From assembly GCF_009696675.1 (NCBI RefSeq), contig NZ_VULN01000002.1, positions 62,001 to 126,000 on the forward strand: a stretch of DNA of 64,000 bases. The letters are read 5' to 3'. This DNA is from Acidaminococcus fermentans (GTDB lineage: Bacteria > Bacillota > Negativicutes > Acidaminococcales > Acidaminococcaceae). Positions 25,373 through 63,842 of this stretch are shown here, piece after piece. Every line of letters begins with the position of its first letter. Position 1 is the first letter of the stretch. The notes beneath the pieces were generated by a model. The model did no database searches. It saw only the letters and a list, made by a program, of their open reading frames with translations, and was not told the DNA's origin. The translations under genes were made by a program, and so were the position numbers.

Positions 25373-25394
25373 AAAGCCCATAACAAAACATCAG

Positions 25395-25670
25395 ACAGTG
25401 TTGAATGGGAAAAGTACTTGTCCAGTCTCACATTCCAGAGAACCTGCCGCTTGGTGCGAGGCAGGATGCTGAGAGGAGAAGGAAAATCACCCAGGAGCTG
25501 CCCGCTGAAAGATTCCAAGTAAGTGGGGCCGGCTGACAGCCGTTATTCTGTCCGGCATTGGAAGGGAAATCCGGAGATGCTAGTAAAGAGGTCGCAGCAG
25601 CGACAACAAGAGTGGTACCGCAGAGCACAGCGCTTTGTCTCTTACAGGAGACAAAGCGCTTTTCTTTTTC
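25395..25670 (+). ncRNA. T-box leader, predicted isoleucine specifier (AUC)
   Basis: The T-box sequence AAGAGTGGTACCGC lies at 25608-25621. The terminator arms AGCGCTTTGTCTC and GAGACAAAGCGCT (25629-25641, 25648-25660) precede a T-rich tract. In stem I, TGGG (25406-25409) pairs with CCCA and AGTA (25413-25416) faces GAA (25482-25484). CTTGTCC pairs with GGAGAAG above the loop. The triplet after GAA-A is ATC at 25486-25488, followed by A. The UGGU bulge implies a tRNA with discriminator A, which fits tRNA-Ile and not tRNA-Asn (the alternative AAT reading). Uncharged tRNA should favour readthrough into the BASS gene. Confidence 0.85.
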
Positions 25671-53685: not shown

Positions 53686-53731
53686 GCTTGCTGTCCGTGG
53701 ATGTCTTCCACACGGGCAGCAGGCTTTTTTT
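53686..53731 (+). terminator. Terminator of the MacAB-like operon
   Basis: AAGCTTGCTGTCCGTGGA and TCCACACGGGCAGCAGGCTT pair with small mismatches and are followed by T7. Confidence 0.88.
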
Positions 53732-53732
53732 G

Positions 53733-53840
53733 TCAGCGGCAAACGGTTAACGGTCAACGGCCGGATGATAAAATCTGCAGGCAGATTTTTTGAATAGGGA
53801 ACTCGGAATCCGTAGAGGACGCACTTCGGGCGGCCAGCAA
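53733..53840. repeat. Composite intergenic repeat, second copy
   Basis: It repeats the order seen near 13.1 kb: TGTCAGC with AACGGTCAACGGCCG, an AT-rich hairpin AAATCTGCAGGCAGATTT with TTTTGAAT after it, then CCGTAGAGG with CGCAC and CGGGCGGCC. The third block is shorter and more diverged than at 13.1 kb. Confidence 0.7.
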
Positions 53841-53879
53841 GTTTAACGGATACAAAGGCGAAAAGAGAGAGCATCTGTC

Positions 53880-55079
53880 TTACAGCAGATTCATGAACAG
53901 GGTGATGATCAGCGAGTTTACGATATCCGTAAAAAATCCTCCGCAGATGGGAATGATCAGATAAGCCTTTTCCGAAGGACCATAGACCTTTGTCAGGGAA
54001 TCCATATTGGCCATGGCATTGGGGGTGGCCCCCATACCAAATCCGCAGTGGCCGGAGGACAGGACAGCTGCATCATAATCCCGTCCGCAGCAGGAAAAGG
54101 TGATAAAATAACAGAATGCGGCACAAATGCCTGTCTGGATCAGGAGAATCACCAGCATGGGCAGAGCCAGCCCTGCCAGCTGTTGGAGTTTCAGCCCCAT
54201 CATGGCCAGGGCCAGGAAGAAATTCAGACAGATGGAACCTATGGTGCTGATTTCCGGGACGGGAATATTCTGCCCCTGGCTGTCACTGATATTGCGGATC
54301 AGGATCCCGATAATCATGGAGCCTACATAAGAGGCCATGGTCAGGTGGATCTGGTTGAAAAAGTACGTGATAAAGGTGCCTGCTCCAGAGGCCAGGAATA
54401 AAAGAGCAAGGGCCCAGGTCCCTCGTTCTGGATCCAGCGTTTGTCGAAAATGCGTGTTTTTCTCCAGTTCTGCTTTGGCTTCTTCGTTCTTGAAACCTGA
54501 AGAACTGGTTGTCAGGTGAAGAGAAACAATGCGTTTTCTGGCAACCGGATTGCCAATGAGATTTCCTGCAATCAGGCCATAGGTGGCTGCAGCAATGGCA
54601 ACTGTTAAAGCATTGCTGATGCCCATGTCTTCCAGCAGAGGAGCGAAAGCAGCAGAAGTTCCATGGCCTCCTGTCAGGGGCAGAGAACCCAACGCCAATC
54701 CCAGCAGAGGCGGAAGACCGAAGAAGTGACACAGCAGGGCACCGGCCGTATTCTGGAGAACTATCAGAACAGCTACAACCGCCATAAAGACAATCAGTGT
54801 CTTACCTCCTTTTTTAACCATGGAAATGCTGGCGGAAAACCCCACACTGGTAAAAAAGAGATTCATGAAAACACTTTGAAGACTGGTGTCCAGAGTCAGA
54901 TTCAGCAGGTTGAGTTCAAAAAGGGAAAACTGGAGAAGTGCAAAAACAATTCCTCCGATTACCGGACTGGGAATACAGTATGTCTGGAAAAATGCAATTC
55001 TCTTTTTCAGGACGGATCCCAGATAGAATACGATAACGGCCAAAGCCATGGTATGATAAAGATTCAGGGATATAGTCAT
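53880..55079 (-). CDS. GltS-family Na+/amino acid carrier, copy 2
   Basis: A 399-residue carrier with about ten to twelve helices. The two re-entrant repeat motifs are GSLPLTGGHGTSAAFAPL and SSGHCGFGMGATPNAMANM. It is well diverged from the GltS at 41018, and codon use is more AT-rich, with more AGA and TTT than in neighbours. It follows the FolD-like gene on the same strand with a 58-base gap. The substrate may be glutamate or another acidic or hydroxy amino acid. Confidence 0.9.
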   Translation of the reverse strand: MTISLNLYHTMALAVIVFYLGSVLKKRIAFFQTYCIPSPVIGGIVFALLQFSLFELNLLNLTLDTSLQSVFMNLFFTSVGFSASISMVKKGGKTLIVFMAVVAVLIVLQNTAGALLCHFFGLPPLLGLALGSLPLTGGHGTSAAFAPLLEDMGISNALTVAIAAATYGLIAGNLIGNPVARKRIVSLHLTTSSSGFKNEEAKAELEKNTHFRQTLDPERGTWALALLFLASGAGTFITYFFNQIHLTMASYVGSMIIGILIRNISDSQGQNIPVPEISTIGSICLNFFLALAMMGLKLQQLAGLALPMLVILLIQTGICAAFCYFITFSCCGRDYDAAVLSSGHCGFGMGATPNAMANMDSLTKVYGPSEKAYLIIPICGGFFTDIVNSLIITLFMNLL

Positions 55080-55137
55080 GGTAATACCTCCTTTTCAAGA
55101 GATGGAAGGACAGTGTCTTTTTGCTGCCGTCATTCTT

Positions 55138-56028
55138 TTATCCATTTTCAGGGGATGGGCGGCCAAGGACCAGGAACGGTCTGGATGCTTTTTCAGCTGC
55201 TTCCAGTACATGCCGGGCCAGTATGGCTGTAGTGACGGAACCGACGCCGCCGGGAACCGGGGTGATGGCGTCCACAATAGGGGATACGTTGGAAAAATCC
55301 ACATCGCCGCAGATTCCCCCGTTTTCTGCAGGGTTGATGCCCACATCGATGAGGGTCTGTCCTGGACGGACCATGGAGGCGGTAACCAGGTTCCGGCAGC
55401 CGGCGGCGGAAACGATGATGTCAGCGGACCGGCAGTACTTCCCCACATCTTTTGTCCGGATGTGGCAGATGGTGACGGTGGCTTCCCGTTTCAGAAATTC
55501 CATGGCAACAGGCCGGCCGATGACCAGGCTGGATCCGATTACCACCACATCCCTGCCTTTGACAGGGATATCGTAATGATCCAGGATTTCCATACAGGCA
55601 GCGGCGGTGCAGGGGGAATATCCGGTGGGAGCTCCGGTAAAAAGCCCGGCCAGAGATGCATCCGTGATTCCGTCCACGTCTTTTTCAGGGGCAAGAGAAG
55701 CCCGGATCAGAGCATCATCAAAAGCCGGTGGGAAAGGACGAAAAATCAGGCATCCGTGAATGGACATATCCTGATTGACCTGGCGGATCAGACGGAGCAG
55801 ATCCTGCTGTCGGCAGTTTTCCGGAAGGATCTGGGGACGGCAGGTGATGCCGATGCTGCTGCAGCGTTTCTGGATGCTGGTCTGATACCGTACATCACTG
55901 AGCCGGTTTCCAATCCGGATCAGGGCCAGGACCGGTTCCACACCTTTTTCTTTCAGCAGGGAAGCCTGGTTCTGCAGAGAGGGCAGCAGGGCTGCGCTTA
56001 CGGTTTTACCAATCAGTAATCTGGACAT
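55138..56028 (-). CDS. FolD-like methylenetetrahydrofolate dehydrogenase lacking cyclohydrolase residues
   Basis: A 296-residue FolD-family protein. NADP site IGSSLVIGRPVAM, KDVDG (folate Asp) and TPVPGGVGSVT are kept. The position of the catalytic Lys (E. coli Lys54, in YVxxK) holds Ile52 (YQTSI). The partner Gln of VQLPLP (E. coli Gln98) is Phe96 (LIFRPFP). In characterised FolD proteins this Lys is needed for cyclohydrolase but not for dehydrogenase, so a dehydrogenase-only or altered function is inferred. GGAGGAATATCC precedes the ATG. It has a leader with a terminator upstream. Confidence 0.88.
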   Translation of the reverse strand: MSRLLIGKTVSAALLPSLQNQASLLKEKGVEPVLALIRIGNRLSDVRYQTSIQKRCSSIGITCRPQILPENCRQQDLLRLIRQVNQDMSIHGCLIFRPFPPAFDDALIRASLAPEKDVDGITDASLAGLFTGAPTGYSPCTAAACMEILDHYDIPVKGRDVVVIGSSLVIGRPVAMEFLKREATVTICHIRTKDVGKYCRSADIIVSAAGCRNLVTASMVRPGQTLIDVGINPAENGGICGDVDFSNVSPIVDAITPVPGGVGSVTTAILARHVLEAAEKASRPFLVLGRPSPENG

Positions 56029-56057
56029 TGGATATTCCTCCTTGGCCTGACAGGAAA

Positions 56058-56192
56058 TAAAAAAGCCTGACGGCAGCTGCAGTGCAGTTGGTCAGGCCTT
56101 CTAAACAGAGGGTAATGAAGGAGATTCAGTACCCTGTCTATAAGGGGTTTGAAATTTGTTATACTATACCACAGCAAACAGGAATCCTGCAA
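56058..56192 (-). promoter_or_regulatory. Promoter and attenuator-like leader of the FolD-like/GltS-like transcript
   Basis: On the - strand, TTGCAG (56192-56187) and TATAGT (56168-56163) are 18 bases apart. The leader contains a hairpin built on TACCC...GGGTA (plus 56105-56114 with 56130-56137). It then has a 14-bp terminator (plus 56065-56071 with 56091-56097, CAGCTGC/GCAGTTG inside) followed by T7 before the ribosome site. The terminator precedes the coding start by about 30 bases. Confidence 0.7.
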
Positions 56193-56229
56193 GTGGTATT
56201 TTCTGAAAAATCGATTTTCCAAAATATTC

Positions 56230-56354
56230 TTGACAGAATAGCCGGACCATGCTATGATTCACCTAAATCGTCGAGTATATGGGTTGCAGGATAACCTTCT
56301 GGAACCGACATATGGGAGGCTGACAAAAGAGTTTTCTTTTTGTCGGCTTTTTTT
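56230..56354 (+). promoter_or_regulatory. Promoter and attenuator-like leader of the DUF3870/SHMT-like transcript
   Basis: A perfect TTGACA (56230-56235) and TATGAT (56253-56258) are 17 bases apart. The leader, from about 56265, can pair TATATG with CATATG around GGTT-GCAGGAT-AACC. A terminator GCTGACAAAA/TTTTTGTCGGC with T7 follows (56319-56354). CCGACA (56305-56310) can pair with TGTCGG (56341-56346) of the terminator, giving an alternative fold. I recognise no known riboswitch class. Confidence 0.7.
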
Positions 56355-56377
56355 GTACCTGAAAAGAGGGCAGAGCT

Positions 56378-56716
56378 ATGAGAGAATGTATCTATCCGGA
56401 AGATTCGGTCTTTGTGACCGGGGTGGCCAAAGTTACCCGGGAAGACGCCATCAATGCCATGTATGGTACGTTCAGCCTGAGCCTGATCATCGATGGACAC
56501 ACCGGGATGATCCTCAATGCCAGTGCCAATATGGTGATGCAGGATACGGTGGAGTTCCTGAAAGACATCCTGATAGGGCGCAATCTGCTGACAGATGGGG
56601 AAGCCGTTACGTTGATCTTAAAGAAACGGTTCCTGGCACTGTCACAAAAAGCCGTTATTACCGCTTTCAAGGATGCCCAGAATCATTTTCTGCTGGTGTA
56701 CCCACAGGCGAAATAA
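56378..56716 (+). CDS. DUF3870-domain protein
   Basis: A 112-residue protein. VFVTGVAKVTREDAINAMYGTFSLSLIIDGHTGMILNASANMVMQDTVEFLKDILIGRN and LSQKAVITAFKDAQNHFLLVY match the DUF3870 pattern. The function is unknown. It is the first gene after a terminator-containing leader and lies upstream of the SHMT-like gene in the same direction. Its base composition is more AT-rich than that of the flanking operons. Confidence 0.85.
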   Translation: MRECIYPEDSVFVTGVAKVTREDAINAMYGTFSLSLIIDGHTGMILNASANMVMQDTVEFLKDILIGRNLLTDGEAVTLILKKRFLALSQKAVITAFKDAQNHFLLVYPQAK

Positions 56717-56777
56717 GCACTCTTCTGCAGATTCTTTTTTAATGGGACTGGGATGACCTCTCAGTACTGTCTTGGGG

Positions 56778-56824
56778 AAGAACAGGCAGCTGTTGGATTT
56801 CAGCTGTATTGTTCTTCTTTTTTC
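56778..56824 (+). terminator. Intra-cassette terminator-like hairpin
   Basis: AAGAACA (56778-56784) pairs with TGTTCTT (56810-56816), and CAGCTG (56787-56792) with CAGCTG (56801-56806). CTTTTTTC follows. It would lower readthrough from the DUF3870 gene into the SHMT-like gene. Confidence 0.6.
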
Positions 56825-56863
56825 TTGTGTTCTCAACCTCTCATGCTGGAAAGGAGTCCTGAA

Positions 56864-58192
56864 ATGAAACCTGTAAAACAAGATGCTGTAAAACTGCTGG
56901 ATATTTTCGATCCTGAAATGGCCAGTCTGCTGCATAGAGAAGAAAAAAGGCAGTTCGAAACCATTGGCCTGATCGCCTCTGAGAATGTGGCATCTCCGTT
57001 GTCCACCTGCCTGGAAGGATCCGTATTCACCAACAAAAATACGGAAGGGTATCCGGGAAAACGGTTCGTGGGAGGCTGTGAACTGGCGGATCAGGCGGAA
57101 CTGCTGGCCTTGGAAAGAGTCAAAAAAGTCTTTGGGGCAGAACATGCCAATATCCAGTCTGGCAATGCGACGATTGCCAATTGCGCCGTACTGACCGGTC
57201 TTCTGGAAAGAGGAGATACTTTTTTAGGATTGACTCTGGATAATGGAGGCCATTTAAGCCATGGAGCCAAATTCCATTACAGTGGGCGGGAGTTCAATGC
57301 CCTTCACTATGGTGTCAACCGGGAAACAGAACGGATCGATATGGATCAGGTTCGCCAGATGGCGTTGGAACATCATCCCAAACTGATTGTTACCGGGGCT
57401 TCTTCTTATCCCCGTATGATTGACTATGCAGGATTCCGGTCCATCTGTGACGAAGTGGGGGCCTATTTCTGGGTTGACTGTGCTCACGATATCGGGCTCA
57501 TTGCAGGCGGTGCCATTCCCAGTCCCGTACCCTATGCGGATGTGGTGACATTCTCTACCCAGAAAACGCTCCGGGGGCCCCGGGGCTGTGGAGTGATCCT
57601 GTGCAAAGAGGCTCTGGGGAAGAAAATCGACAGAGGGGTCTTTCCCCGTATCCAGGGCGGGCCCAAAGGGGATATGCTGGCCGCCAGAGGCGTGCTGTTT
57701 TTGGAACTGATGCAGCCGGAATTCCGGACCTATGCCCATCAGGTGGTGAAAAATGCCAAGGCACTGGCCAAAGGCTGTGCGGATGAAGGGATGCGGCTGA
57801 TTACCGGCGGGACGGATACCCACATGGTTATGCTGGATGTGACGCCGGTCATTGCCAATGGACAGCTGGCGGAGACACTGCTGGCCAGCGTGGGAATCAT
57901 CACCAACAAGAACATGATCCCCTATGATACGCTGCCTCCCAGTCTTGGCAGTGGGCTGCGCATCGGTTCTCCCACCATGACCACCCGGGGTGCAAAGGAA
58001 GAGGAGATGTATGAAATCGGCCGGCTGCTGGGAAAGGTGTTGAAGAACAAAGACAATGAAGAGTTGCTGGAACAGGTAAAGCAGGAAGTCCGTCAGCTGG
58101 CCGTCAGCCATCCCATGTTTTCCAGTGAATGGATGCCGGAAAAAATCAGGGCCCAGTTCGATGCCATGTACTGTCACGAAACCTTTGAATAA
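56864..58192 (+). CDS. Serine hydroxymethyltransferase-like PLP enzyme with altered active site
   Basis: A protein of about 442 residues with the SHMT fold: IGLIASENVASP, EGYPGKR, GGHLSHGAKFHYSG, the PLP Asp/His in VDCAHDIGL, the PLP Lys in STQKTLRGPRG (Lys234) and the carboxylate Arg in GLRIGSPT. Residues that differ from E. coli GlyA are Tyr55 to Asn59, Tyr64-Tyr65 to Phe68-Val69, and His228 to Gln233 beside the Lys. The enzyme is therefore likely active on an amino acid but not necessarily as a serine-THF transferase. AAAGGAG is spaced for the ATG at 56864. A normal GlyA is not in the window. Confidence 0.85.
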   Translation: MKPVKQDAVKLLDIFDPEMASLLHREEKRQFETIGLIASENVASPLSTCLEGSVFTNKNTEGYPGKRFVGGCELADQAELLALERVKKVFGAEHANIQSGNATIANCAVLTGLLERGDTFLGLTLDNGGHLSHGAKFHYSGREFNALHYGVNRETERIDMDQVRQMALEHHPKLIVTGASSYPRMIDYAGFRSICDEVGAYFWVDCAHDIGLIAGGAIPSPVPYADVVTFSTQKTLRGPRGCGVILCKEALGKKIDRGVFPRIQGGPKGDMLAARGVLFLELMQPEFRTYAHQVVKNAKALAKGCADEGMRLITGGTDTHMVMLDVTPVIANGQLAETLLASVGIITNKNMIPYDTLPPSLGSGLRIGSPTMTTRGAKEEEMYEIGRLLGKVLKNKDNEELLEQVKQEVRQLAVSHPMFSSEWMPEKIRAQFDAMYCHETFE

Positions 58193-58234
58193 GGATCAGG
58201 TCAGGATGCATAAACGGCCGATGACCGCTGACAA

Positions 58235-58283
58235 AAAGAAGGTGCTGCCTGTATGCGTTTTTGCACAGGCAGCACCTCTTTTT
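58235..58283. terminator. Bidirectional terminator between SHMT-like gene and hutD
   Basis: AGGTGCTGCCTGT and ACAGGCAGCACCT (58240-58252, 58265-58277) pair around a 12-base loop. There are A-rich bases on the left and T5 on the right. The preceding bases CGGCCGATGACCGCTGACA resemble the first block of the composite repeat. Confidence 0.9.
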
Positions 58284-59044: not shown

Positions 59045-59950
59045 ATGGCGAAAAAATTGGTTGAATTTGTTCCGAATTTCAGTGAAGGCCGGGATAAGGA
59101 AAAGGTTGAAAAGATCGTTGACGAAGCCCGCAAGATCAAAGGGCTGAAGATCCTGGATTACTCCAGCGATGCTGACCACAACCGTTCTGTCGTCACCATC
59201 ATCGGTTCTCCTGAAGCGGTTACGGAAGCAGCCATCAACATGGCCAAAGTTGCCATCCAGCTGATCGATATGCGGACCCACCATGGGGCTCATCCCCGGT
59301 TCGGTGCCGTGGACGTGGTTCCCTTCACTCCGGTGATGGGCGTGACCATGGACGAATGCGTGGCCATTGCCAATGCTGTGGGCAAGGCTTATGGGGAAAT
59401 GGGCATCCCTGTGTATCTGTATGAAGATGCCTGCACCAAGGAAGCCCGCCGGAACCTGGCTGCAGTACGGAAAGGCCAGTACGAAGGCTTCTTTGAAAAG
59501 ATCAAGGATCCGGAATGGAAACCGGATTACGGCCCTGCCGTCATGAACGAAAAATCCGGCTGTTCCGCTGTAGGCGCCCGGGTGCCTCTGGTGGCCTTCA
59601 ACGTGAACCTGGACTGCAGCGACAAAGCGGTAGCCGATGCCATTGCCCGGAAAGTCCGGAACATCGGCGGCGGTCTCCACTATGTAAAGGCCATGGGCGT
59701 GAAACTGGAAGAACGGAACCAGGTACAGGTTTCCATGAACTTGGTGAACTACGAAAAATCCGCTGTGTACCAGGCTTTTGAAATGATCAAGATGGAAGCC
59801 CGCCGGTACGGCGTCAATGTGGTGGGCAGCGAAGTCATCGGGACCGTTCCCATGAAGGCCCTGCTGATGGCTGCAGAATATTATCTGCAGATTGAAAACT
59901 TCAACCTGGACGAAATCCTGGAAAAACGGCTGCTGGAACTGGAAGAGTAA
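59045..59950 (+). CDS. ftcD: Glutamate formimidoyltransferase
   Basis: A 301-residue enzyme that moves the formimino group of N-formiminoglutamate, the product of histidine breakdown, to tetrahydrofolate. VEFVPNFSEGRDKEKVEKI at the start and LDYSSDADHNRSVVTIIG are family signatures, with HHGAHPRFGAVDVVPFTP in the folate and substrate site. Only the transferase domain is present; the cyclodeaminase part is the separate gene at 61668. It heads the three-gene operon. Confidence 0.95.
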   Translation: MAKKLVEFVPNFSEGRDKEKVEKIVDEARKIKGLKILDYSSDADHNRSVVTIIGSPEAVTEAAINMAKVAIQLIDMRTHHGAHPRFGAVDVVPFTPVMGVTMDECVAIANAVGKAYGEMGIPVYLYEDACTKEARRNLAAVRKGQYEGFFEKIKDPEWKPDYGPAVMNEKSGCSAVGARVPLVAFNVNLDCSDKAVADAIARKVRNIGGGLHYVKAMGVKLEERNQVQVSMNLVNYEKSAVYQAFEMIKMEARRYGVNVVGSEVIGTVPMKALLMAAEYYLQIENFNLDEILEKRLLELEE

Positions 59951-59977
59951 CAAGTCGGTCCACAAGGAGGAAATTCG

Positions 59978-61648
59978 ATGCTGAGCGATATCGAGATTGC
60001 GCAAAAGAATGTGATGGAACCCATCAGCAAGATTGCTGACAAAGTGGGGATCCTGCCGGAAGAACTGGAACAGTACGGTCATTACAAAGGAAAAATTTCT
60101 CTGGATGTGCTGAAACGTCTGGAAAACAAACCCAACGGGAAACTGGTGCTGGTCACTGCCATTACCCCTACCCCTGCCGGGGAAGGAAAATCCACCACCA
60201 GCATCGGCCTGGCCCAGGCTCTGAACCGGGTGGGCAAAAAGGCTGTGGTGGCCCTTCGTGAACCGTCCCTGGGACCTGTGTTCGGGATCAAGGGCGGGGC
60301 TGCCGGCGGCGGTTATGCCCAGGTGGTTCCCATGGATGACATCAACCTCCATTTCACCGGAGACATGCATGCCATTACTGCAGCCAACAACCTGCTGTCC
60401 GCTATGATCGACAACCACATCCATCACGGCAACGAACTGCGGCTGGATGCCCGTCAGATCACCTGGCGCCGGGTCATGGACATGAACGACCGTGCCCTGC
60501 GGAACGTGGTGGTGGGCCTGGGGGGCAAAGTCTGCGGGTTCCCCCGTCAGGATGCCTTCACCATTACCGTGGCTTCTGAAATCATGGCCATCCTGTGCCT
60601 GGCCAAAGACCTGGAAGACCTGAAAGCCCGGTTCGGCCGGATCGTCATCGGCTGCGACCTGGACGGGAATCCGGTCCATGTACACCAGCTGGGCTGCGAA
60701 GGGGCCATGGCCATGCTCATGAAGGATGCCATCAAACCGAACCTGGTCCAGACCCTGGAACACACTCCGGCCATTATCCACGGGGGGCCTTTTGCCAACA
60801 TCGCCCACGGGTGCAACTCCCTCCTGGCCACCAAGATGGCCCTGAAACTGGGCGACATTGCCATTACGGAAGCCGGCTTCGGTGCTGACCTGGGTGCTGA
60901 AAAATTCATGGACATCAAATGCCATTACGGCAACATCTATCCGGATGCAGTGGTGCTGGTTGCCACCATCCGTGCCCTGAAGATGCACGGGGGCGTCGCC
61001 AAGGCTGATCTGAGCCAGGAAAATGTCCAGGCTGTCAGCGACGGGTTCTCCAACCTGGCCAAACAGGTGGAAAACATGCGGACCTTCGGGCTGCCGGTCC
61101 TGGTGGCCATCAACAAGTTCGCCACGGATACTCCGGCGGAAATCGACATGCTGCTCCAGAAATGCGCCAGCTACGGAGTGGAAGTCAGCCTGAACGAATG
61201 CTGGGAAAAAGGCGGCGAAGGCGGCATCGACATGGCCAACAAACTGGTGGCCATGCTGGAAGAACAGGCTCCGGAAAAAGTGGAACTGTACGATGTGAAC
61301 GATACCATCCCCAACAAGCTGAAGGCCATTGTGACCAAGATCTATGGCGGTGACGGAGTGACCTTTACCCCCAATGCCAAGAAACAGATCAAACAGCTGG
61401 AAGACTGGGGACTGGACAAACTGCCGGTGTGCGTGGCCAAGACCCAGTATTCCCTCAGTGACAATCCGGCTCTCCTGGGCGCTCCCAAAGGGTTCAAGAT
61501 CAATGTCCAGGATGTGCGGGTATCCAACGGGGCAGGGTTCATTGTCTGCCAGACCAGCAACATCATGGTAATGCCCGGCCTGCCCAAGAAACCGGCGGCC
61601 CTGAAGATGGACATCGACAACAACGGCAAGATCTACGGCCTGTTCTGA
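59978..61648 (+). CDS. fhs: Formate-tetrahydrofolate ligase
   Basis: A 556-residue enzyme. [21 protein letters not shown] carries the ATP site, and [35 protein letters not shown] is the family signature. In this setting it would run from 10-formyl-THF to formate with ATP synthesis, though the reverse direction is equally catalysed by the family. GAGGAAATTCG precedes the ATG. It lies 27 bases after ftcD. Confidence 0.97.
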
Positions 61649-61667
61649 GCAGGGAGGAAAGGATCCT

Positions 61668-62288
61668 ATGGAATTACGCAAACTGACAGTGGAAGGATTC
61701 ATCAATGAAACGGCCTCGTCTTCTCCGGCTCCCGGAGGGGGCAGCATTGCAGCCCTGAACGCTTCTTCTTCCGCCGCCCTGATCGCGATGGTGGCCAACC
61801 TGACCCTGGGCAAGGAAAAGTATGCGGCTGTGGAAGGGGACATGAAGGATGTGGCGGCCAAAGCCACGGCCCTGAAAGATGATTTCCTGGCCCTCATTGA
61901 TGAGGACAGCAACGCTTTCAATAAAATCATGGCAGCCTTCAAGCTGCCGAAGGATACGGACGAAGCCAAGAAAGCCCGGAGCGCGGCCATCCAGGAAGCC
62001 ACCAAGGGCGCAGCCCTGGTGCCCTTCAAGGTGGGCCAGAAAGCCAACGAGCTGTTTGCTCTGGCAGAAACCGTGATCACCAAAGGCAACCAGAACGCCA
62101 TCACCGATGGGGCAGTGGCGGCCATGAATGCACGGGCTGCCGTACGGGGAGCCTTCCTGAACGTAAAGATCAACCTGGGCAGCATCAAGGATGCTCTGTT
62201 CGTGGAAGATCTGAAAAAGAGAATGGCTGAAATCGAAGCCGATGTGGATGCCAGAGAACAGGCACTGCTGGGCAAGGTGAAGCTGTAA
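61668..62288 (+). CDS. fchA: Cyclodeaminase/methenyltetrahydrofolate cyclohydrolase (FchA family)
   Basis: A 206-residue helical protein. FINETASSSPAPGGGSIAALNASSSAALIAMVANLTLG is the family signature. It would turn 5-formimino-THF to 5,10-methenyl-THF and/or methenyl-THF to 10-formyl-THF, linking FtcD to Fhs. It lies 19 bases after fhs. Because the FolD-like protein at 55138 lacks cyclohydrolase residues, this enzyme may also supply that step for it. Confidence 0.95.
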   Translation: MELRKLTVEGFINETASSSPAPGGGSIAALNASSSAALIAMVANLTLGKEKYAAVEGDMKDVAAKATALKDDFLALIDEDSNAFNKIMAAFKLPKDTDEAKKARSAAIQEATKGAALVPFKVGQKANELFALAETVITKGNQNAITDGAVAAMNARAAVRGAFLNVKINLGSIKDALFVEDLKKRMAEIEADVDAREQALLGKVKL

Positions 62289-62343: not shown

Positions 62344-62373
62344 GGGTGTGGATCTTTCCACACCCTTTTTTTA
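62344..62373 (+). terminator. Second terminator after fchA
   Basis: GGGTGTGGA, the loop TCTT and TCCACACCC are followed by T7. It is oriented for the + strand and overlaps the end of the convergent gene. Confidence 0.88.
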
Positions 62374-63816
62374 CACCTCGATCCCGTATTTCCTGATCCG
62401 GTACTGGAGATTTTGACGCTGGATCCCCAGCTCTTTGGCGCTGCGGGTAATGTTCCCCTGGTTCCGGCGGAGGGTTTCCTCCAATAGGTACATTTCGTAG
62501 CTGGCCATTTTTTCCGCCAGGGTACGGCCCGGCATATCCGGAGGCGGGTCCTGGCGCCCGGACCGGGGCAGGGCGGATCTCTTCCGGCTGGTCTCCCTGA
62601 GGGAGGGGGCCGTCCAGGGGGCACGGATAAAGTCCGGAAGCAGGTCATCGGTGAGCTCGTTGCCTTCCGCCAGGTTCATGGCATAGTCCAGTACATGGAA
62701 CAGCTCCCGGACATTTCCCGGCCAGCTGTACTGCTGCAGCTGCCACAGGGCTTTGGGGGCAATATGGGTAAGGGGATAGGCATAGCGGCTGGCGCAGCGG
62801 CGGAGGTAGAAATGGCACAGGGCTTCCAGATCATCGATCCGATCCCGGAGCGGGGGAATCTGGAGCACCATGGTGGCCAGCCGGTAAAACAGGTCTTCCC
62901 GAAGCCGGCCGGCCCGGACCAGCTGGAAGGGGTCCTTGTTGCAGGTGGAGATCACCCGCACATCCACTTCCCGTTCCCGGGTCTCTCCCACCCGGCGGAA
63001 AACACCTTCCTGGAGTACCCGGAGAAGCTTGGCCTGCATGGCCGGACTCATGGAATTCAGTTCGTCCAGGAACAGGGTCCCTTCATGGGCGGTTTCCAGC
63101 AGACCTTTCCGGTTGGTGGAACCGGTATAGGCCCCGGCTACGGTACCGAACAGGATGCTTTCAATGAGGCTTTCGGGAACGGCGGCGCAGTTGAACACCA
63201 CCAGGGGCTTGTCTTTCCGGCGGCTCAGCTGGTGGATGCTTTGAGCCAGGATTTCCTTGCCGGTGCCCGTCTCTCCGTAGATCATGATGTTGCTGTCCTG
63301 GGGAGCCACCTTTCGGACCGTCTTTTTCAGTTCCTGCACGGATGGAGCTTCTCCAATGAAATCCTCCAGGTCATAGCTGCGCTTTTTCTTTTCCTGTCCC
63401 TGAGCCAGGGCCAGGTTCTGGGCCCGGTTCTGGAGCTGTTCCAGCAGCTGCCGCCGTTTGTCCAAGAGAAACACGTCTTCTTCAAAGTCGATGGCCGCCG
63501 TCAAAGTCCTGTTCTCAAAGACCGGATGGGCGGTGTTGAAAGTGTAGTGTTCCTTTCCGTCCATGGTTTTGTACCGGCAGAGCCGGTTCCGGATCTCTTT
63601 CTGTTCCCGGATGCAGGACAGGGTGGTGCTTTCTTCTGAAGTCACATTGACCACGGACAGCAGAGCTTCTCCCCGATACGGACTGTTTTCCGGCACACCC
63701 ATCATCTGCCGGGCCTTCCGGTTCATGAAAATGGCTTTCCCCAGAGGAGAATAAATGTAGACTGCTTCATCCAAAAGGTCCAGGGCTTTTTCCAGAAAAT
63801 GGATATAAGATGTCAT
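62371..63816 (-). CDS. Sigma-54-dependent transcriptional activator (PAS + AAA + Fis HTH)
   Basis: An activator of about 481 residues: PAS-like sensor about 8-120 (DEAVYIYSPLGKAIFMNRKARQMMGV), AAA+ domain about 150-390 (GETGTGKE Walker A, GTLFLDELN Walker B) and a Fis-type HTH at the C-terminus (GNITRSAKELGIQRQNLQYRIRKYG). The sigma-54 contact loop, usually GAFTGA, reads GAYTGS. Two ATGs are adjacent; GGAGGG suits the second, at 63816. It has no receiver domain. Its target may lie across the right edge of the window. Confidence 0.93.
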   Translation of the reverse strand: MTSYIHFLEKALDLLDEAVYIYSPLGKAIFMNRKARQMMGVPENSPYRGEALLSVVNVTSEESTTLSCIREQKEIRNRLCRYKTMDGKEHYTFNTAHPVFENRTLTAAIDFEEDVFLLDKRRQLLEQLQNRAQNLALAQGQEKKKRSYDLEDFIGEAPSVQELKKTVRKVAPQDSNIMIYGETGTGKEILAQSIHQLSRRKDKPLVVFNCAAVPESLIESILFGTVAGAYTGSTNRKGLLETAHEGTLFLDELNSMSPAMQAKLLRVLQEGVFRRVGETREREVDVRVISTCNKDPFQLVRAGRLREDLFYRLATMVLQIPPLRDRIDDLEALCHFYLRRCASRYAYPLTHIAPKALWQLQQYSWPGNVRELFHVLDYAMNLAEGNELTDDLLPDFIRAPWTAPSLRETSRKRSALPRSGRQDPPPDMPGRTLAEKMASYEMYLLEETLRRNQGNITRSAKELGIQRQNLQYRIRKYGIEV

Positions 63817-63842
63817 CATGCCCTCCTTTTATGCGCAGAAAA

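Follow-up and report, generated by a model that had tools for sequence, protein, structure and literature searches.

Serine hydroxymethyltransferase (SHMT) occupies a central place in one-carbon (C1) metabolism. In degraders of TRIS and 2-hydroxymethylserine, the paralogue mSHMT is encoded in cassettes together with FolD, PurU and a transporter, in some cases with a D-serine dehydratase as well (PMC10848231). The published donor-specificity residues of SHMT, Tyr55 and Tyr65, are Thr and His in mSHMT, and an SHMT with the Tyr55Thr exchange gains the use of D-serine (PMC6411801). Here, we analyzed four genes at positions 53880–58192 of a 64,000-nucleotide stretch of the Acidaminococcus fermentans genome (hereafter, the window), where the genes for a GltS carrier and a FolD-like enzyme on the minus strand diverge from those for a DUF3870 protein and an SHMT-like enzyme on the plus strand around a region of 349 bases. 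The strands, the families (TIGR00210, PF00763 with PF02882, PF12986 and PF00464, respectively) and the length of the gap between the folD-like and DUF3870 genes agree with an earlier note made from this DNA. We propose, with middling confidence, that the block is a mobile cassette for hydroxymethyl transfer from an amino acid other than serine. Its features are:

53695–58269, no strand: block present or absent as a whole (blastn and tblastn of the locus in the closest relative, G073, against the window; junction sequences; GC content at third codon positions, GC3)
53880–55079, minus strand: GltS-type Na+/glutamate symporter-family carrier, second gene of the minus-strand transcript (TIGR00210; PF03616)
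55138–56028, minus strand: FolD-like methylene-tetrahydrofolate (THF) dehydrogenase, predicted to be without cyclohydrolase activity (PF00763/PF02882; residue table)
56378–56716, plus strand: DUF3870 protein of 112 residues (PF12986, 95.5 bits; neighbourhoods)
56864–58192, plus strand: SHMT-like pyridoxal phosphate (PLP) enzyme of a rare clade (PF00464; alignments; tree; distribution)

The mSHMT–FolD–PurU–transporter cassette is the closest known analogue, so the gene set is not a wholly new idea, and the statement of the earlier note that no described pathway contains it was too strong. Sequences of mSHMT type that we recovered from Pseudomonas, Shinella and Ensifer plasmids have Thr/Phe/His at Tyr55/64/65, and their genes adjoin folD, purU and amino-acid transporter genes and, in two cases, also a gene for D-serine ammonia-lyase. 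As in TRIS cluster II (PMC10848231), the window combines an SHMT paralogue altered at Tyr55, Tyr64 and Tyr65, the exchange of Tyr64 for Phe being the same in both, with a linked folD, an amino-acid carrier and a C1 exit on movable DNA. It differs from the mSHMT cassettes in that the paralogue belongs to a separate clade with Asn/Phe/Val at the three sites, in having Fhs and FchA rather than PurU, a FolD without cyclohydrolase residues, DUF3870 and GltS, and, unlike some of them, in having no D-serine dehydratase inside the block. With GlyA (EC 2.1.2.1), the SHMT-like protein shares the fold family, the PLP lysine, and the catalytic and THF-site residues, but not the donor-site tyrosines.

Donor site of the SHMT-like clade

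The SHMT-like reading frame is open from 56753, and the likelier start is the ATG at 56864, which is preceded by GGAAAGGAG. The protein scores 409 bits with PF00464 (cut-off 27) and 495 bits with PRK00011, the general SHMT model (cut-off 335). It is not the only SHMT of the genome that holds the window (G000; 2.35 Mb, 99.9% complete), since a canonical GlyA, to which it is approximately 47% identical, is encoded on contig C23. According to the earlier note, its proposal would fall if the protein were an ordinary serine hydroxymethyltransferase and the sole one of the genome, or if the four genes failed to co-occur in other genomes; neither proved to be the case. In the alignment, the clade keeps Lys226 (the PLP lysine), His122, Asp197, His200, Glu53 and Arg357 (B. 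stearothermophilus numbering), and Asn341, which like Glu53 contacts THF, is retained as well. These retained residues suggest that the protein would perform PLP- and THF-dependent chemistry.

The donor-specificity residues are changed. In all five members of the clade, Tyr55, Tyr64 and Tyr65 are replaced by Asn, Phe and Val, Leu265 by Lys, and His267 by Asp (E. coli numbering), the last two being clade-wide changes near the PLP site, whereas Tyr55 and Tyr65 are both Tyr in each of the 14 GlyA sequences compared. The clade is monophyletic in the tree (support 100/100, branch length 0.99) and lies outside the mSHMT group (99/97). As judged from the sequences, the clade is a third state (Asn/Val) of the donor-specificity switch, reached on a separate branch. 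Because of these changes, a non-serine amino acid is the probable substrate for cleavage, and we are confident, short of certainty, that the protein is not an ordinary serine enzyme.

The clade is rare. Among 380 genomes of the class it occurs in four, G000, G106 and the large genomes G034 and G147, with two copies in G147, and 398 genomes sampled from the phylum gave a single match, that of the window itself. All plasmid relatives were below 60% identity, and the viral contigs searched held no relatives of the SHMT-like protein or of DUF3870.

The four-gene block and its likely one-carbon partners

The block (4.57 kb) is absent as a single piece from G073, the closest relative, whose FtcD is 99.7% identical to that of the window. 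There, proA-macA-macB-permease is followed directly by hutD-ftcD-fhs-fchA, with approximately 26 bases between the aligned parts, and the block of the window lies exactly at this point. A terminator-like hairpin is found at each edge of the block (junction sequences, by eye). In G106, which belongs to the same genus, all four genes are likewise located beside hutD-ftcD-fhs-fchA, with the order of gltS and folD swapped. The recurrence in swapped order in G106 and the empty site in G073 show that: (i) the four genes travel together, as the earlier note had supposed, and (ii) they are gained or lost as one unit. The full block is present in two of the nine genomes of the genus, and the SHMT-like gene and the folD-like gene were not found in the other seven. 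The GC contents of the GltS (48.8%), DUF3870 (49.6%) and SHMT-like (52.8%) genes are below the window mean, as claimed earlier for all four genes, but that of the FolD-like gene is not (56.7 versus 56.8%). GC3 is 54–63% in the four genes, 73–79% in the upstream proA, macAB and permease genes, 66% in ftcD and 74% in fhs. We regard the block, at the same middling level of confidence, as an amino-acid-catabolic cassette that is horizontally mobile or has been lost repeatedly.

In the FolD-like protein, Lys54 is replaced by Ile and Gln98 by Phe, while Tyr50 and the aspartate of the DVDG motif are kept. Lys54 of E. coli FolD is essential for cyclohydrolase activity, and the K54N variant has no detectable cyclohydrolase and retains approximately 19% of the dehydrogenase activity (PMC5688156). 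The nearest relatives of the FolD-like protein (41–51% identity) are encoded beside FchA, usually also Fhs, in Coriobacteriia, Clostridia and Erysipelotrichaceae metagenome-assembled genomes, and those in fhs-fchA-folD operons have likewise lost Lys54 and Gln98. The window gene shares the FolD subclade of these operons but differs in context, as it shares a divergent block with gltS, and hutD and ftcD lie between it and fhs-fchA. On a simple reading, the protein is a predicted dehydrogenase without cyclohydrolase activity that would work with FchA as a separate cyclohydrolase. The second, housekeeping FolD of G000 (contig C4, L087 8851–9900) has Leu at both places (YKRSL; GILPLVPFP; by eye). 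Since the losses are common to the housekeeping FolD and the C1 operon clade, the change in the FolD-like protein says nothing about an unusual substrate, and we rejected it as a hint of one. The earlier note was thus right that both active sites are altered, but its step from there to a substrate other than serine stands for the SHMT-like protein only.

The GltS carrier scores above the TIGR00210 equivalog cut-off (338.8 versus 310.75 bits; PF03616, 2e-110), and so does its 70% identical orthologue in G106 (358.2 bits). The DUF3870 gene lies immediately 5′ of the SHMT-like gene in all four clade genomes (four of the five clade genes). In 48 loci of the class taken from the best-scoring matches, some of which overlap, DUF3870 genes have a glutamate racemase gene nearby in 11 genomes, one such case being a 68% identical DUF3870 paralogue in G000 itself. 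In 10 genomes, enolase-superfamily genes are close by (best model L-Ala-D/L-Glu epimerase, below its cut-off), and in three, 2,4-diaminopentanoate-dehydrogenase-like genes. The DUF3870 sequence matched no PDB structure, a literature search for its function found nothing, and a single-sequence AlphaFold2 model (pLDDT 36) was not used. Downstream of the SHMT relatives of G147 lie genes for SDF carriers of the GltP/DctA type (below equivalog cut-offs), a glutamate racemase and a CuyB/Asp-racemase-type double-domain protein, the last two over cut-off, and an aspartate ammonia-lyase-family gene is located upstream of the second SHMT-like copy. Taken together, the GltS score, the SDF carriers and the racemase neighbours hint that the amino acid is acidic and that the product has the D configuration.

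Three further observations concern these families. A second DUF3870 type in the genus occurs with an Ala-Glu-epimerase-like enolase-superfamily gene and a DUF819 membrane protein, in some species also with a class-A-beta-lactamase-like gene, a set reminiscent of peptidoglycan-peptide recycling. One region of G147 (C1:942000–981800) contains three different SHMT variants within approximately 25 kb, the third with Thr/Phe/Gln at the donor-specificity sites, along with a D-serine ammonia-lyase, a DsdX-like GntP carrier, two SDF carriers, an aspartate ammonia-lyase-family gene and two racemase-type genes, of which one encodes a CuyB-like protein with a double domain. The D-serine ammonia-lyase gene of G000 stands beside a GntP-like carrier gene (C10:15500–31000), away from the cassette.

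Fhs and FchA are encoded 2–4 kb from the block:

59045–62288, plus strand: FtcD (59045–59950), Fhs (59978–61648) and FchA (61668–62288) (TIGR02024, PRK13505, FTCD_C)

FtcD is present in all nine genomes of the genus, and the FtcD-Fhs-FchA run in all seven genus loci examined. Fhs and FchA belong to this histidine (FtcD/HutD) module, and the C1 exit is therefore likely shared rather than dedicated. The earlier note had pointed to these two enzymes as a possible exit, and both are indeed encoded nearby.

Leaders of the divergent transcripts

The region between the two halves of the block contains the following elements:

56029–56377, no strand: divergent regulatory region of 349 bases (sequence)
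56050–56165, minus strand: folD–gltS leader ending in an intrinsic-terminator-like hairpin (GGCCTGAC...GTCAGGC followed by T6; fold z −3.0)
56230–56258, plus strand: sigma-70-type promoter, TTGACA-17-TATGAT with extended TG (11 of 12 consensus bases)
56276–56352, plus strand: DUF3870–SHMT leader, a 40-nt stem-loop (ATATGGGTTnCAGGATnACCTnCTGnAA...) and then a terminator hairpin with T7 (fold z −2.8)

A promoter and a terminator-containing leader had been claimed for each side. Both are found on the plus side; on the minus side the terminator is present, and a promoter scan 5′ of folD gave no consensus promoter. Expression of each half may be gated by its leader terminator. Between G000 and G106, 27 of the 31 base pairs of the plus-strand leader hold in both species (93.5% of pair cells), with one-sided changes only and zero two-sided changes. 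A similar hairpin with T7 precedes gltS in G106, so that both leaders are present in the other carrier of the block. The stem-loop motif of the plus-strand leader occurs once in G000, once in G106 and nowhere else among the nine genus genomes, and the leader therefore gives no hint of a ligand. Rfam returned no match to the leaders at the gathering threshold, with weak, chance-level matches only, and a known riboswitch was rejected on this basis.

Elsewhere in the window, a sigma-54-dependent regulator is encoded on the minus strand at 62371–63819, convergent with fchA (best NCBIfam model PrdR, 315 bits, far below its cut-off), and may regulate the histidine C1 module. A T-box leader lies on the plus strand at 25392–25645 (119.5 bits, above the Rfam threshold).

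Proposed reaction and rival explanations

Based on these observations, we infer the reaction, its direction, the class of substrate and the C1 route as follows. The carrier would import an amino acid that is alpha-substituted and perhaps acidic. From this non-serine amino acid, the SHMT-like enzyme, a GlyA paralogue remodelled at the sites where mSHMT is, would remove a hydroxymethyl (C1) unit, the most likely donor bearing a substituent at its alpha carbon. Transfer of the unit to THF would release the matching amino acid, probably in the D form. The FolD-like protein would then oxidize methylene-THF, and hydrolysis by FchA followed by Fhs would yield formate and ATP. This scheme accommodates every gene but DUF3870. 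Its parts differ in strength: a catabolic direction is rather probable, an alpha-substituted or D-amino acid as the substrate can be argued about equally well for and against, and a side chain of the glutamate/aspartate type is a tentative suggestion.

Several points weigh against the scheme: (i) the Asn/Val pair is that of neither GlyA nor mSHMT, so that, as far as residues can tell, specificity is not readable from them; (ii) GltS, above its equivalog cut-off, could simply bring in glutamate; (iii) the complete block is known from two genomes only; (iv) in the literature searched, no acidic amino acid with an alpha-hydroxymethyl group was reported from nature; and (v) D-serine as the product is unsupported, as the presence of D-serine dehydratase (ammonia-lyase), which is found in G000, G147, G082 and G114 and gave no match over cut-off in G106 and G034, does not track the SHMT-like clade.

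The protein could instead be a serine/glycine SHMT duplicate whose active site is relaxed; the cassette would then ferment serine, or form it from glycine and histidine-derived C1 units, the FolD-like protein being extra dehydrogenase capacity. Retention of all catalytic PLP residues, the PRK00011 score and the position of the block, next to the histidine C1 module in the two species that carry it, are compatible with this. We nevertheless consider it unlikely, given that tyrosines invariant in the 14 GlyA sequences are replaced in five of five clade members, together with Leu265Lys and His267Asp, that G000 already has a canonical GlyA, and that the carrier is a GltS and not a serine carrier.

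Alternatively, the enzyme may be THF-independent, a D- or beta-hydroxy amino acid being its substrate in a racemase, transaminase or aldolase reaction, with the FolD-like protein a mere co-resident. There is a precedent in the chlamydial GlyA, characterized as a potential source of D-alanine (PMC3935232); DUF3870 occurs elsewhere with racemases and epimerases, so that the SHMT-like gene may occupy the place of a racemase; and no such folD adjoins the SHMT-like genes of G147 and G034. On the other hand, the two genomes that carry the complete block both retain a folD of the C1-catabolic clade, in different order, and the THF-contacting Asn341 and Glu53 are conserved, which leaves this explanation similarly improbable. 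A new lineage of true alpha-methylserine or 2-hydroxymethylserine hydroxymethyltransferase (EC 2.1.2.7) would explain the alteration of the same sites, including the shared Tyr64 to Phe change, and the same kinds of partner (FolD, transporter), but is quite improbable given the position outside the mSHMT clade, Asn/Val as opposed to Thr/His, carriers of the acidic type, and the lack of a D-serine dehydratase in the cassette and of any over cut-off in G106.

We therefore retain the non-serine hydroxymethyl-transfer cassette as the best overall explanation. Its most far-reaching form, in which a new THF-dependent hydroxymethyltransferase yields D-Glu or D-Asp from an alpha-substituted Glu/Asp-type acid, DUF3870 regularly accompanies D-amino-acid/racemase chemistry, and both the fermentative C1 route to formate and ATP and the leader RNA that controls it are new, is speculative, and we would not expect all of it to hold. 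For DUF3870, the neighbourhoods described here are the first functional lead known to us, and they place the family in a racemase/epimerase, D-glutamate context. A natural SHMT clade with a third solution at the donor site, linked to a carrier and to C1 enzymes, is a direct lead to an amino acid not yet recognized in the metabolism of anaerobes, and also to biocatalysis of quaternary amino acids.

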